From Deltaproteobacteria bacterium (GTDB lineage Bacteria; Myxococcota; Myxococcia; SLRQ01): DNA of 64,000 bases. Within the stretch, counting starts at the first letter, position 1; each line of letters opens with the position of its first letter. The DNA is taken from positions 62,001-126,000 of the forward strand of contig JARGFU010000003.1 of assembly GCA_029210625.1 (NCBI GenBank), read 5' to 3'. The notes beneath the pieces are model-generated. The model was not told the origin of the DNA and did not search any database. It was given only the letters and a program-made list of their open reading frames with translations. The position numbers and the translations under genes were made by a program. Positions 4,223 through 36,444 of the stretch are shown here, in pieces.

Positions 4223-5240
<1,018 letters not shown>

Positions 5241-5244
<4 letters not shown>

Positions 5245-6329
5245 TCGTAGCCCTCCTCTGCCGCAGCGGGTGCCTCCGGCGCGACCGGGGCGGCCGCGGC
5301 GGGCAGCGGCGCCAGGCGGCCGACCTCTTCCCGCAGCTTGCCGAGCTGCGCCTCGGCCGTCTCGAGGTCCGGCGCGGTGCGGACGCCGATCACCCAGCGC
5401 CCCTCGGCGACCGCGCCCGAGACCTCACCCAGGTAGCGGTCCTTCACCCAGTGGTCGCTCCCCTCGACGGCCTCCCCGTACTGGAGGAAGCCCTCGTGGA
5501 ACTGGCGGGCGAGGGTGGCAGCGGCCGCCTCGTCGCCGGCGCGGTGCACGAAGAGCTCGGTGGAGCCGTCGGCCAGGCGGGCGGCGTGGACCTCGCGGGC
5601 GAAGCCGAAGGAGAAGGCGCTCTCGGGGTAGTAGGCGAGGTCACCGGCGCCGGCCCCGAAGGCCTCGAAGAGGGCCTGGGACCAGGGCCGCTCGGCGCCC
5701 TCGAGGGCCCCGGAGAAGGTGGCCTCCAGGGCGGCGAGGGCAGCCTTCACCTCGGCGCCCTCGTCCGAGCCGATGGCCCGGAGGAAGTGCTTCCCGCGGG
5801 TGAGGAGCAGGGCGTTGCGCTCGAGGTGGGCGAGGTCTCCGCCCACCCGCCGGGGCTCGGCGCCCTCGGGCAGCTCACCGGAGAGGGCGCCGGCGGCGTT
5901 CTCGGCCCGGCCGAGATCGTAGAGCTCGAGCTCGATGGTCCGCTCGGGGGCATCGCTGGCCACCAGGGTGGCGGCCCAGAGGTGCTGGAAGCCGAAGGCC
6001 TTGAAGTAGCCCTCCCGGCCGTTGATCTTCACGTAGAGGTTCTCGGCGTCGAAGGAGCCCAGGCCCTGCTCGGCGAAGCCCTCGGGCGCCAGGCCCTCGG
6101 GCAGGGGGCCCCGGTCGACGAGCCCGGCGGCGGCCGGCAGGCCGGGATCCACCGGCGCCTCGAAGAGGGTCGGGTCGGGGTGCGCGCCCCTCCAGGCCAC
6201 CCAGGCCGTGATCGCGCCGAGGGCGAGGAAGACCGCCAGGGAGTAGCGGACCTCCACCCGGGAGTAGGTCTTCCTGAAGTGCTGACGCCCCCGGTGGGTC
6301 AGCACTCGCTCTTCGAGCTTCGAAGCCAT
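5241..6329 (-). CDS. Membrane-anchored DUF6599-like protein
   Basis: Start taken at MASKLEERV (6329). The upstream extension of the frame is Arg/Pro-rich and looks non-coding. One membrane helix ([18 protein letters not shown], about residues 30-47) would anchor the protein in the inner membrane. The outer part contains [17 protein letters not shown] and a later [14 protein letters not shown], patterns that recall the DUF6599 family, whose function is unknown. It is the first gene of the operon with DUF362, polyferredoxin and aldo/keto reductase. Ala/Pro-rich C-terminal tail. The family call is by eye. Confidence 0.6.
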
Positions 6330-30480: not shown

Positions 30481-32178
30481 ATGGCACGCATCGACAAGTT
30501 CATCGACGCGCTCTTCCAGTTCGGCGCCGACGAGCTGCGCATCGTGGCCGGGATGCGGGCCATCCTGGTGACCGGCCAGGAGGCCCGGCCGGTGACCCAC
30601 CAGGACGCCACCTCCGCCCAGGTGGTCGAGCTGCTGCGGGAGATCGCCCCCGAGGTGCACCACCCGGAGCTGGAGGTGGACGGCGCCTTCTCCTTCGAGC
30701 ACCGCTCGGGCCAGGGCAAGGTGAAGGTGACCGTGGGGCGAGTGGGCGACCAGATCACCGCCTCCCTGCGGCCGGTGCCCGAGGAGCCCGACGGGGAGTC
30801 GGCCCTCGAGGCCCTGCGGGCCTGGACCCAGGAGGAGTCCGTCGGGGAGGTCGAGCTCGACGCGCCCGACACCGGCGTCTTCATCCCCGAGGCCGGGATC
30901 TCGCTGGCCGAGGCGCCCGACGCCATCGAGCTGGACGACGTTCCGGAGACCGGGGCCGGCTTCCCGGACCTCCTCGAGCGGGAGCGCGAGCCGGTGCCGG
31001 ACGTCGCGGCGGGCGCCACCCGGGCGCCCGACTCCGAGTACCCGGCGCCCCCCGAGGCGCCGCCCTCCGCCCCGGTGGCGGTCTCCTCCCCGGGAGGCGC
31101 GGCGGAGATCGATGCCTTCTTCCGGAGGATGCAGGACGAGGGCTGCTCGGATCTGCACCTCACCAGCGGGCAGCCGCCCCTCTTCCGACTCGACGGCTCG
31201 ATGGTGTCGTTGATGGGCGACGGGCGGCTCTCGGCCGAGACGGTGCACCGCCTGGTCCTGGAGATCACCCCGGAGAAGAACCGGCGGGAGTTCGAGGAGC
31301 TCCACGACACCGACTTCGCCTACGAGATCCCGGGGCTCGCGCGCTTCCGGGCCAACCTCTTCATGGACCGGAACGGCCCGGGCGCCGTCTTCCGGATCAT
31401 CCCGGCCGAGATCCTCTCCGCGAAGCAGCTCGGGCTGCCCCCGGCGGTGATGAACCTCTGCGAGCTGCGCAAGGGGCTCGTGCTGGTGACCGGCCCCACC
31501 GGCTCCGGCAAGTCGACGACCCTGGCGGCGATGATCGACCACATCAACCGCAGCCGGGACGAGCACATCATCACCATCGAGGACCCCATCGAGTTCGTGC
31601 ACCCCCAGCACAAGTGCCTGATCAACCAGCGGGAGGTGGGGGTCCACACGAAGGGCTTCAAGCAGGCCCTGCGCGCGGCCCTCCGAGAGGATCCGGACAT
31701 CGTCCTGGTGGGTGAGATGCGGGATCTGGAGACGGTGGCCATCGCCATCGAGACCGCCGAGACCGGTCACCTGGTCTTCGGGACGCTCCACACCAACACC
31801 GCGGCCTCCACCATCGACCGGATCATCGACCAGTTCCCGGCGGACCGTCAGGCCCAGATCCGGACCATGCTCTCCGAGTCCCTGAAGGGGGTCATCGCCC
31901 AGACCCTCTGCAAGAAGGTGGGGGGAGGACGGGTCGCCGCCCTCGAGGTGCTGATCGTCACCGCCTCGGTGGCCAACCTGATCCGCGAGGGCAAGACCTT
32001 CCAGATCCCCTCGATCATGCAGACCGGCCGGAGCGCCGGGATGACCACCCTCAACGAGTCGCTCCTGCGCCTGCTCAAGAGCCGGCTGATCTCTCCGGAG
32101 GAGGCGGTCACCAAGTCGGTGGCCCGCGCCGAGATGCGCCAGACCCTGATGGAGAAGGGGATCGTCGTCCGCGAGTAG
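30481..32178 (+). CDS. PilT/PilU-like ATPase with duplicated N-terminal domain
   Basis: 565 residues, longer than usual PilT (about 350-380). Residues about 207-565 are a complete retraction ATPase: SDLHLTSGQPPLFRLDG, Walker A GPTGSGKSTT (about 338-347), the Asp box EDPIEFVH, Walker B DPDIVLVGEMRDLET and the His box TGHLVFGTLHTNTA. The first 105 residues (ADELRIVAGMRAILVTG, ATSAQVVELLREI, VTVGRVGDQITASLRPVPE) align with the PilT N-terminal domain at 207-315, so this domain is duplicated, with a Pro/Glu-rich linker between copies. The role would be pilus retraction or regulation. No other pilus gene is nearby. Confidence 0.88.
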   Translation: MARIDKFIDALFQFGADELRIVAGMRAILVTGQEARPVTHQDATSAQVVELLREIAPEVHHPELEVDGAFSFEHRSGQGKVKVTVGRVGDQITASLRPVPEEPDGESALEALRAWTQEESVGEVELDAPDTGVFIPEAGISLAEAPDAIELDDVPETGAGFPDLLEREREPVPDVAAGATRAPDSEYPAPPEAPPSAPVAVSSPGGAAEIDAFFRRMQDEGCSDLHLTSGQPPLFRLDGSMVSLMGDGRLSAETVHRLVLEITPEKNRREFEELHDTDFAYEIPGLARFRANLFMDRNGPGAVFRIIPAEILSAKQLGLPPAVMNLCELRKGLVLVTGPTGSGKSTTLAAMIDHINRSRDEHIITIEDPIEFVHPQHKCLINQREVGVHTKGFKQALRAALREDPDIVLVGEMRDLETVAIAIETAETGHLVFGTLHTNTAASTIDRIIDQFPADRQAQIRTMLSESLKGVIAQTLCKKVGGGRVAALEVLIVTASVANLIREGKTFQIPSIMQTGRSAGMTTLNESLLRLLKSRLISPEEAVTKSVARAEMRQTLMEKGIVVRE

Positions 32179-32724
32179 CTACTCGGAGGGCTGCGCCTCG
32201 CGCAGCGCTACCCCCAACTCGGCGAGGGTGCGCGCGACATCCGCGCCGGCCGTCGAGGGGCTGACGTCCCGGTCGACCTTCAGGATCTTCCCGTCCTTGC
32301 CGATGTAGAAGGTGTGGCGGCTCGCCACGCCGACCCCCTTGAGGAGCACCCCGTAGGCGCGGGCGACCTCCTTCCCCGGGTCGGAGAGGATGGGGTAGTC
32401 GAGCTCGAGCTTCTTGGCGAACTCGGTGTTCTTCTCCACGGGATCGACGCTCGCCGCGTAGTAGGCGACCTCGTAGCGCCGGATGGCCTCGCCGCTCTCA
32501 CGGAGCGACTTGCACTCCATGGTTCACCCGCCGGTGAAGGCCTTGGGGAACCAGGCCAGGACGACCACCTCCTTGCCGAGGTGGTCCGCCAGGGCGTGCT
32601 GCCGTCCATCGGAGCCCGCCAGCTCGAAGGGGGGGGCCGAGGTGCCCGGGTCCAGCTGCTGCCCGTGGGCGCAGGCGGAGGACAGGAGCGCCGCGGCGAC
32701 GGCGATCGTGTTGCGCGTCTTCAT
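32179..32724 (-). CDS. Selenocysteine-containing peroxiredoxin lipoprotein (UGA read as Sec)
   Basis: 181 residues when the in-frame TGA at 32526-32524 is read as selenocysteine. The N-terminal part has a lipoprotein signal ([10 protein letters not shown]), then [17 protein letters not shown] and [14 protein letters not shown]. The TGA follows directly, then TMECKSLRE. In the AhpC/TSA (PrxQ-like) family this is the peroxidatic Cys (FTxGCTxE...C), so Sec sits at the active site with a possible resolving Cys four positions later. The rest is normal: [46 protein letters not shown]. It would reduce peroxides at the cell envelope. The reading frame continues without shift, and a SECIS hairpin lies downstream of the TGA. 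Confidence 0.9.
32491..32526 (-). promoter_or_regulatory. Bacterial SECIS element with its UGA codon
   Basis: The UGA is at 32526-32524. Downstream in the mRNA, GUCGCUC-CGUGA-GAGCGGC (32509-32491) forms a 7-bp stem with one G-U pair and a 5-base loop whose second base is G. The loop starts 22 bases after the UGA. These values fit the bacterial SECIS rules known for SelB recruitment (G in the first two loop positions, loop 16-37 bases from UGA). Confidence 0.85.
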
Positions 32725-32876: not shown

Positions 32877-33134
32877 ATGGAGTACTCAGGGATCCTCATA
32901 GCGGCCCGGCCGGAGGCGATGGACGAGGTCCGTCGCGCCGTCGACGGCCTGGAGGCGTTCGAGGTCCACCGCTTCCACCCCGAGGAGGGCCGGATGATCG
33001 CGGTCCAGGAGGCCGCGACCAACGAGGCCTCGAAGGAGGGGCTTCGGAGGATCCAGGCCCTGCCCGGGGTCCTCTTCGCCGAGCTCGTCTATCACCTGGT
33101 CGACGAGCACCGAGAACCGCACGAGGGAGAGTAG
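32877..33134 (+). CDS. napD: NapD chaperone for periplasmic nitrate reductase
   Basis: 85 residues with ferredoxin-like fold pattern: [38 protein letters not shown] and [15 protein letters not shown], as in NapD. NapD binds the Tat signal of NapA and checks cofactor loading before export. The ATG follows a gggggaggc ribosome site, and napA starts 2 bases after the stop, which secures the call. Confidence 0.85.
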
Positions 33135-33136
33135 CA

Positions 33137-35917
33137 ATGGCCAATCTCGATCGCCGTGATTTCTTGAAGACCTCCGTCGCCGCCGCCGCGGCCGCGACGG
33201 TGGGGCTCTCCGCCCGGGAGGCCGCCGCCGAGGTCCTGGAGGAGGGCTGGAAGTGGGACAAGGGGGCCTGCCGCTTCTGTGGCGTGGGCTGCGGCATCCA
33301 GATCGCCACCAGGAAGGGCAAGGTGGTCGCGGTGAAGGGCGACCCGGACAGCCCCGTCAACCGTGGCATCCTCTGCGCCAAGGGCTACGCTAACGCCCTG
33401 ATCCCCTACGGCGACGATCGCCTCACCCGGCCCCTGCTCCGGATGAAGGACGGCAAGTTCGACAAGAGCGGTGACTTCGTGCCGGTCTCCTGGGAGCGGG
33501 CCTTCGACGAGATGGAGGCCCAGTTCAAGAAAGCCCACGGCGAGCTCGGCCCCACGGGCGTCGGCATCATGGGCTCAGGCCAGTACACCATCCAGGAGGG
33601 CTACGCCGCGGTGAAGCTCGCCAAGGCGGGCTGGCGGACCAACAACCTCGATCCCAACGCCCGCCACTGCATGGCCTCGGCGGTGGCCGCCTTCATCCAG
33701 ACCTTCGGCATCGACGAGCCCTCGGGCTGCTACGACGACCTCGAGCTCACCGACACCGCGGTGCTCTGGGGCGCGAACATGGCCGAGATGCACCCCATGC
33801 TCTGGTCACGCATCGTCGACAAGCGGCTGGCCGGCGGCAAGTACCAGATCGTGAACCTCACCACGATCAGCAACCGCAGCTCGCAGCTCGCCGATCTGGA
33901 GATCGTCTTCAAGCCGCAGACCGATCTGGCGATCTGGAACTTCCTGGCCCGCGAGGTCATCAAGCGCAAGGCGATGGACAAGAAGTTCGTCGACGCGCAC
34001 TGCGTCTTCGCCACCGGCCCCTACGACATCGGCTACGGGATGCGGGGGAGCGATGCCTTCGCCTACGAGGCCGAGAAGGACACCCAGCTTCGCGAGCGGG
34101 TGGTCGTCCTCACCAAGGAGGAGGCCATCGCCCAGCGCAAGCCCGTGGGGACCCGCACTGCCTACGAGCAGAAGAACGTCGCCAGCGCGGGCAAGCACTG
34201 GCAGATCACCTTCAAGGACTTCCAGAAGGCCCTCGAGCCCTACACCCTCGACTTCGTGGCCAACCTGGCCAATGGGGATCCGGACGAGCCGATCGAGTCC
34301 TTCAAGAAGAAGCTGAAGCAGCTCGCCGACCTCTACGTCGACAAGCAGCGCAAGATCGTCTCGCTCTGGACGATGGGCATGAACCAGCACACCCGCGGCA
34401 CCTGGGTGAACGAGCAGGCCTACATGGTGCACCTGCTCACCGGGCGCCAGGCCAAGCCGGGCAACGGCGCCTTCTCGCTCACCGGGCAGCCCTCGGCCTG
34501 CGGCACCGCCCGCGAGGTCGGCACCTTCGCGCACCGCCTTCCCGCCGACATGGTGGTGGCCAACCCCAAGCACCGGGAGATCAGCGAGAAGCACTGGAAG
34601 CTCCCGGCGAAGACCCTCAACCCCAAGATCGGCAGCCACATCACCCAGCAGATGCGCGACATCGAGGACGGGTCGATGAAGTGGCTCTGGGTCCAGGTCA
34701 CCAACCCCTTCCAGTCCACGGCCAACGCCAACCACTGGATCAAGGCGGCCCGAAAGAACGACGCCTTCGTGGTGGTCTCGGACGTCTACCCGACCCTCTC
34801 CTGCAAGGTCGCCGACCTGATCCTCCCCTCGGCGATCATCTTCGAGAAGTGGGGTGCCTACGGGAACTCGGAGCGCCGCACCCAGGTCTGGCGGCAGCAG
34901 GTCCCGCCGCCGGGCGAGGCCCGCTCCGACGTCTGGCAGATCATGGAGTTCGCCAAGCGCTTCAAGCTCTCCGAGGTCTGGGGTGAGCAGAGCATCCCCG
35001 GCCTGCAGGCCGAGGGCTTCGAGGACGGCAAGCTCCCCGACGTGCTGGCCGAGGCCGGGAAGCTCGGCTACTCGCCCGACGATACCCTCTACGACGTGCT
35101 CTTCGAGAGGCCCCTCGCCGGAACCTTCGCCTGGCCCGATCCGGTGGCGAAGGGCGCGGACAACTGCACGGTCGACGCCGCGGGCATCACCTGGTTCCCG
35201 GAGAAGGCCCTCTTCGAGGACTACGCCGCCTTCGGCCGGGGGCACGCCCACGACCTGGCGCCCTTCGACCTGCTCTTCGCCGACGACGTGCGCGGCCTGC
35301 GCTGGCCAGTGGTCGACGGCAAGGAGACGAGGTGGCGCTTCAACGAGGAGCACGATCCCTACGTGAAGAAGGGCGCGGGCTTCGAGTTCTACGGTGGCGC
35401 CCTCAAGGCCATCCCCAAGGGGAACCTGGACGAGGTCACCAAGCCGGAGCCGCAGTCGGTGGCCGGCCGGGCGAAGATCTTCTTCCGCCCCTACGCGGCC
35501 CCCGCCGAGTCGCCGGACGAGGCCTTCGATCTCTGGCTGGCCACCGGCCGGGTGATGGAGCACTGGCACAGCGGGACGATGACCCGCCGGGTCCCCGAGC
35601 TGCACAACGCCGTGCCCGTCGCGACGCTGGCGATGCACCCGAAGGACGCGACCGCGCGGAAGGTGAAGCACGGTCACCTGGTCTGGGTCGAGTCGCGGCG
35701 CGGCAAGATCCAGGCACGGGTCGAGATCGGGGGACGCAACAAGGTTCCCCGGGGGACCGTCTACGTTCCCTGGTTCGACGAGAGCGTCTTCATCAACAAG
35801 CTGACGCTCGACGCGACCTGCCCGATCTCCAAGGAGACCGACTTCAAGAAGTGCGCGGTCAAGGTCTACGCCGCCGAGGCCGTGGCCGCCGCCCCGGCCG
35901 TCGAGGAGGCCCGCTGA
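33137..35917 (+). CDS. napA: Periplasmic nitrate reductase catalytic subunit
   Basis: 926 residues. Tat signal [19 protein letters not shown]. The [4Fe-4S] site is CRFCGVGC with C in GILCAKGY (about residues 47-82). The molybdenum ligand is a Cys in RHCMASAV (about residue 178), typical of NapA rather than the Sec or Cys of formate dehydrogenases. Other Nap features are [35 protein letters not shown] and the C-terminal [20 protein letters not shown], the molybdopterin-dinucleotide domain. It reduces nitrate to nitrite in the periplasm. Forms an operon with napD and napB; the napB start overlaps its stop by one base. Confidence 0.95.
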
Positions 35918-36444
35918 TGCGCTCTCTCACTCTTCTCTCGCTCGCACTGCTGATCACCGCCTGCTCGGGCGCGGCCCCGGCGCCGGACAAGGCTCCCGAG
36001 CCGCCGCCCGCCGACGAGGGCGCGACCGAGACCGCCGAGGCCCCGGCGCCGGCCCCCGCGTCGATCCCCGAGTCCGAGATCGGCCTGGGGAGCTACGACG
36101 TCTTCGAGGCCGGCACGCCGATGGCGCCGGTGGCGGAGGGCTCCGAGCCCGGTGAGGGCCCGAAGCACCCCCGCGCCCACCCCATGGCCGCGCCGGTGAT
36201 CCCGCACGGCGTCGCCGACCTCGATCCCATCACCCGGGAGAGCAACGCCTGCGTCGACTGCCACGAGGTGAAGGAGAAGACCGAGGGCGAGCCCACCCCC
36301 ATGCCGCCGAGCCACTACACCGACCTGCGCAACGCGCCGGAGAAGGTGGGGGAGAAGGTGGCCGGAGCGCGCTGGGTCTGCATCTCCTGCCACGTGGCCC
36401 GCACCGACCAGGCGCCGCTGGTCGGCAACTCCTTCGGGGGTTGA
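35917..36444 (+). CDS. napB: NapB-like dihaem cytochrome c, predicted lipoprotein
   Basis: 175 residues. Two haem motifs, CVDCH (about residue 111) and CISCH (about 155), with Met/His-rich surroundings (HPMAAPVIPH) as in NapB, the electron-transfer subunit of periplasmic nitrate reductase. Unlike common NapB, the N-terminus is a lipoprotein signal (LSLALLITACSG) followed by a 35-residue Pro/Ala/Glu tether, so it should be membrane-anchored. TGATG coupling with napA. No napC, napGH or napF follows. Confidence 0.88.
   Translation: MRSLTLLSLALLITACSGAAPAPDKAPEPPPADEGATETAEAPAPAPASIPESEIGLGSYDVFEAGTPMAPVAEGSEPGEGPKHPRAHPMAAPVIPHGVADLDPITRESNACVDCHEVKEKTEGEPTPMPPSHYTDLRNAPEKVGEKVAGARWVCISCHVARTDQAPLVGNSFGG

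Follow-up and report, generated by a model that had tools for sequence, protein, structure and literature searches.

A gene of a myxococcotal bacterium that a stop codon appears to interrupt almost certainly encodes a complete antioxidant enzyme with selenocysteine (Sec) in its active site, on the evidence of a recoded frame, a SECIS element, Sec decoding machinery and a peroxiredoxin fold, each as read from the sequence. The gene occupies 32179..32724 on the minus strand of the window (the whole stretch of 64,000 nucleotides that was analysed) and runs from 32724 to 32179 as 66 codons, a TGA and 114 codons in a single phase, with this one internal stop, giving 181 residues with Sec67 followed by a TAG stop (MKTRN...FPKAFTGG-[TGA]-TMECKSLRE...PSE-stop). 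The Pfam AhpC-TSA match spans the TGA (residues 27–148, E = 3.8e-29, 101.6 bits against a cut-off of 26), which bears out the proposal of an earlier note on this DNA that two minus-strand frames form one peroxiredoxin, and yields a whole enzyme where gene callers would report fragments. The UGA, the predicted Sec codon (32524..32526, minus), lies at the peroxidatic position of the motif known from Sec-peroxiredoxins, PxxxTxxU (PMC13188914), here P60-K-A-F-T64-G-G-U67. We infer an exported peroxiredoxin of the BCP/PrxQ–AhpE fold, with a probability of roughly 0.93 for the reading as a whole, in which SelB and Sec-tRNA would decode UGA67 as Sec at a hairpin just downstream, Sec67 would reduce peroxide and become a selenenic acid, this would probably condense with Cys71, a turn further along the helix, to a selenenylsulfide, and a periplasmic thiol reductant would reduce the latter.

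A scan of GTDB genomes, with a pattern that left out the Sec column, provided the best 80 homologues (50–68% identity to the peroxiredoxin), mostly from Acidobacteriota and also from Planctomycetota, Verrucomicrobiota, Pseudomonadota, bins labelled Acidimicrobiia and one Myxococcales; many are metagenome-assembled genomes and their taxon labels may be wrong. The codon equivalent to 67 is TGA in 72 of these and TGC in eight, a frequency biased by the ranking of the 80 by similarity. Sec at the position of the peroxidatic Cys, as the earlier note had it, agrees with this distribution, in which Cys replaces the UGA in the eight. SelB scored above cut-off in 10 of the 12 TGA-form genomes tested and in 5/8 TGC-form genomes, and both gammaproteobacterial Cys forms are among the three TGC-form genomes without it. 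A decayed pseudogene, or a Cys codon turned into TGA by a sequencing error, would likewise show a lone in-frame stop in one draft genome, and the gene stands alone in its lineage: apart from itself, the best match in 195 genomes of the phylum was 42% identical, so that the subfamily is absent from these sampled genomes, a point which counts against our explanation too. We nevertheless consider decay or error exceedingly improbable, given TGA at the same codon in 72 other genomes, a covarying hairpin that is missing from the Cys forms, the lack of a second stop or frameshift and a complete Sec machinery. The phylum relatives (at most about 42% identity) have TGA, TGC or TGT at the equivalent codon, and the lone occurrence of the gene in its own lineage points to transfer or to loss on a wide scale.

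Downstream of the UGA lies the putative bacterial SECIS hairpin GTCGCTC - CGTGA - GAGCGGC (32491..32509, minus), which reads from 32509 to 32491 as a 7-bp stem with one G-U pair and a five-base loop, CGUGA, with G second, the first loop base being base 22 past the UGA. Bacterial SECIS elements have a small apical loop with G in its first two positions, situated 16–37 nt from the UGA (PMC13188914), and the peroxiredoxin hairpin conforms in loop position and G. Tested against synonymous recoding, the hairpin of the source gene alone was not significant (0.133); it was the comparison across genes that decided the call. Of the 73 TGA genes, this one included, 66 keep the full stem or a version of it with paired changes, as against none of the eight TGC genes (Fisher p = 2e-7, with relatedness not corrected for); examples of paired changes are GTCATTC/GAATGGC, ATCGTTC/GAACGGT and CTCGTTC/GAACGGG. 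When the 3' arms were shuffled among genes, at most 48 stems stayed intact in 2000 trials, compared with the 66 observed. Where the loop encodes Arg (69 genes) the codon is CGT in 62, whilst CGT accounts for 45 of the 412 other arginines in these genes. Among the seven exceptions two miss the outermost pair only, and in the other five the stem is shifted in register and five pairs long. The re-registered stems (L101, L135, L142, L147 and L154) combine a 5' arm GTCGCTG or ATCGCTG with CAGCGAC around an eight-base loop, possibly an alternative SECIS geometry.

The earlier note had described a complete bacterial SECIS here, and its stem, loop position and G stand, with covariation and absence from the TGC forms added; the isolated RNA, however, prefers another fold. 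In the minimum-energy structure of the 45-base segment from the UGA onwards a different 9-bp hairpin has a pair probability of 0.95, against 0.05 for the SECIS stem, which is a point against the SECIS explanation. This competing hairpin is complete in just one of the 73 TGA genes, that of the source genome, and begins 3 bases past the UGA. A ribosome positioned on the UGA should cover a hairpin that begins so close downstream, and so would be expected to block its folding. An Rfam scan gave chance matches only. The comparison across genes is strong evidence for a bacterial SECIS and for Sec insertion.

The source genome encodes selA, selB and selD, each above curated cut-offs, and a tRNA-Sec with anticodon UCA (67.5 bits, also above its curated cut-off), so that all four genes named in the earlier note, selC included, are present. 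The features by which a bacterial Sec-peroxiredoxin is recognised, namely an AhpC-TSA/Redoxin domain, PxxxTxxU, a bacterial SECIS and selA/selB/selC/selD, thus occur together. tRNA-Sec was above cut-off in 35 of 38 relatives, although the scores of serine tRNAs come close to that cut-off too. SelD, the selenophosphate synthetase, has an in-frame TGA at its HGAGUACK site (L076, G000:C1:67334-68257, minus) and is probably itself a selenoprotein. Two further peroxiredoxin-like genes of the genome carry TGA in frame at the active-site position. One (L056, complement of about 5038-5850; G000:C7:176903-177286 region) has it at the peroxidatic site, FTPTUSREV, and encodes a peroxiredoxin fused to a C-terminal GST_N/glutaredoxin-like domain; the hairpin 3' of its TGA fits the simple bacterial SECIS rule poorly. 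The other, an AhpC-TSA_2 gene (L055, complement of 2018-2317; G000:C1:195517-195816; RHFGUIFCREQ), is probably a further selenoprotein.

Premature termination occurs at Sec UGA codons, and UGA67 could on such general grounds be a regulated stop, read as Sec when selenium is available and otherwise releasing a short exported peptide. We regard this as very unlikely, since the frame 3' of the UGA is conserved across phyla, the part 5' of it is without the active site and none of our results points to a function of the short peptide.

The N-terminus (32671..32724, minus) is hydrophobic and carries an export signal with a possible lipobox, LLSSAC (Cys18), noted by inspection. The source protein and 76 of the 80 relatives passed a crude hydrophobicity test for export, and on this basis the peroxiredoxin is predicted to be exported. 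The lipoprotein of the earlier note fares less well: LLSSAC is a weak match and 4/80 homologues pass even a loose lipobox pattern (most clearly L103 and L150), leaving lipidation, and with it the exact mode of any membrane anchoring, uncertain. Adjacency to nitrate reductase genes, to which that note had also pointed, is real, as napD, napA and napB (periplasmic nitrate reductase; Pfam NapD, Molybdopterin/TAT and NapB; 32877..36444, plus) lie upstream of the peroxiredoxin gene and diverge from it as context rather than as part of the feature. We rejected a functional tie, however, because the nap neighbourhood is not conserved beside homologues; no ORF next to the source gene is found again at as many as five homologue loci. 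At the other end the peroxiredoxin stop abuts that of a convergent T2SSE/PilT-like ATPase gene (30481..32178), forming the palindrome GAGTAGCTACTC at 32173-32184, where a terminator scan found nothing.

An AlphaFold2 model of the protein, built with 30 homologues in the alignment, had a mean pLDDT of 92.1, and the solved folds nearest to it are BcpB, Bcp1 and AhpE. The TGA-encoded residue stands at the start of model helix 65–76, the usual place of the peroxidatic Cys in peroxiredoxins. The PrxQ-type label of the earlier note proved too loose, and we ruled out the canonical PrxQ/BCP 2-Cys type, as position +5 from Sec67 is Lys72 whilst a Cys occurs at +4 in the source protein and in 80/80 homologues, be they Sec or Cys forms. 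Two PrxQ equivalogs stayed below their curated cut-offs (NF006960, 71.7 against 140 bits; NF053650, 60.2 against 260 bits), as did the NCBIfam PrxU model (42.7 against 270 bits); no NCBIfam model reached cut-off for the source protein, and the same families match across 30 clade members. Cys71 (codon 32512..32514, minus), within helix 65–76, is the candidate resolving residue. The enzyme might instead work as a 1-Cys (here 1-Sec) peroxidase that depends on an external thiol for resolution, with Cys71 structural or protective, as AhpE, with one of the nearest folds, is of the 1-Cys type and the PrxQ +5 position holds no Cys. This we think possible but unlikely: the invariance of Cys71 in all 80, and the absence from the source protein of the C-terminal Cys of its Myxococcota relatives, make a Sec67–Cys71 selenenylsulfide the likeliest resolving step.

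The source protein and the best 80 homologues form a clade of 81 sequences with 100/99 support, separate from the Myxococcota relatives. On the midpoint-rooted tree its eight Cys members (L113, L114, L123, L127, L134, L137, L145 and L146) sit in three nested groups, so that the simplest reading is at least three changes from Sec to Cys; as five of the eight Cys-form genomes keep SelB, the switch would not always have followed loss of Sec decoding. An earlier survey of peroxiredoxins counted five Cys-to-Sec and zero Sec-to-Cys changes (PMC1794560), to which the nested Cys forms point in the opposite direction, making the question of direction testable. On balance we favour the reading that the gene belongs to a clade of exported UxxxC peroxiredoxins, so far undescribed and using selenium for the most part, in Acidobacteriota, Planctomycetota, Verrucomicrobiota and some Myxococcota, with a near-frozen SECIS and apparently ancestral Sec, whose genes pipelines split as no curated model fits. 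The papers searched contained no description of the clade, which older surveys may nonetheless have sighted, and none of them dealt with Sec-peroxiredoxins in Myxococcota as its subject. These data suggest that uncultured bacteria of soil, sediment and freshwater, which may meet oxygen, keep selenium in a predicted exported peroxide-reducing enzyme, and the alignment of Sec and Cys genes can serve at once for building a family model and for work on SECIS elements beyond E. coli.

Sec-peroxiredoxins do exist, but are less exotic than the earlier note implied: Anaeromyxobacter dehalogenans has three (PMC1794560) and the enzyme of Eubacterium acidaminophilum is cited from 2001. The class is long established, and the source gene adds a member in a mostly Sec, exported clade. 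With the known Sec-Prx/BCP proteins (COG1225, PF00578; e.g. E. acidaminophilum PrxU and those of A. dehalogenans) it shares the fold, a peroxidatic Sec, PxxxTxxU and a SECIS just downstream, and it differs from them in its export signal, its Cys at Sec+4 and its separate, well-supported clade. The PrxQ/BCP proteins M. tuberculosis BcpB (5epf) and S. solfataricus Bcp1 (3drn) are the top structural and sequence matches, but have Cys rather than Sec and any second Cys at +5. M. tuberculosis AhpE (1xvw) has the same fold and the AFTG active-site stretch, and is a 1-Cys enzyme with no Cys close to the peroxidatic one. Lastly, the exported FPKAFTGG[C/U] peroxiredoxins of Myxococcota (L027, L028, L059 and L063) share the active-site sequence and apparent export, several with TGA, whilst differing in their identity of at most about 42%, their lack of the +4 Cys, their conserved C-terminal Cys and their position in another clade.
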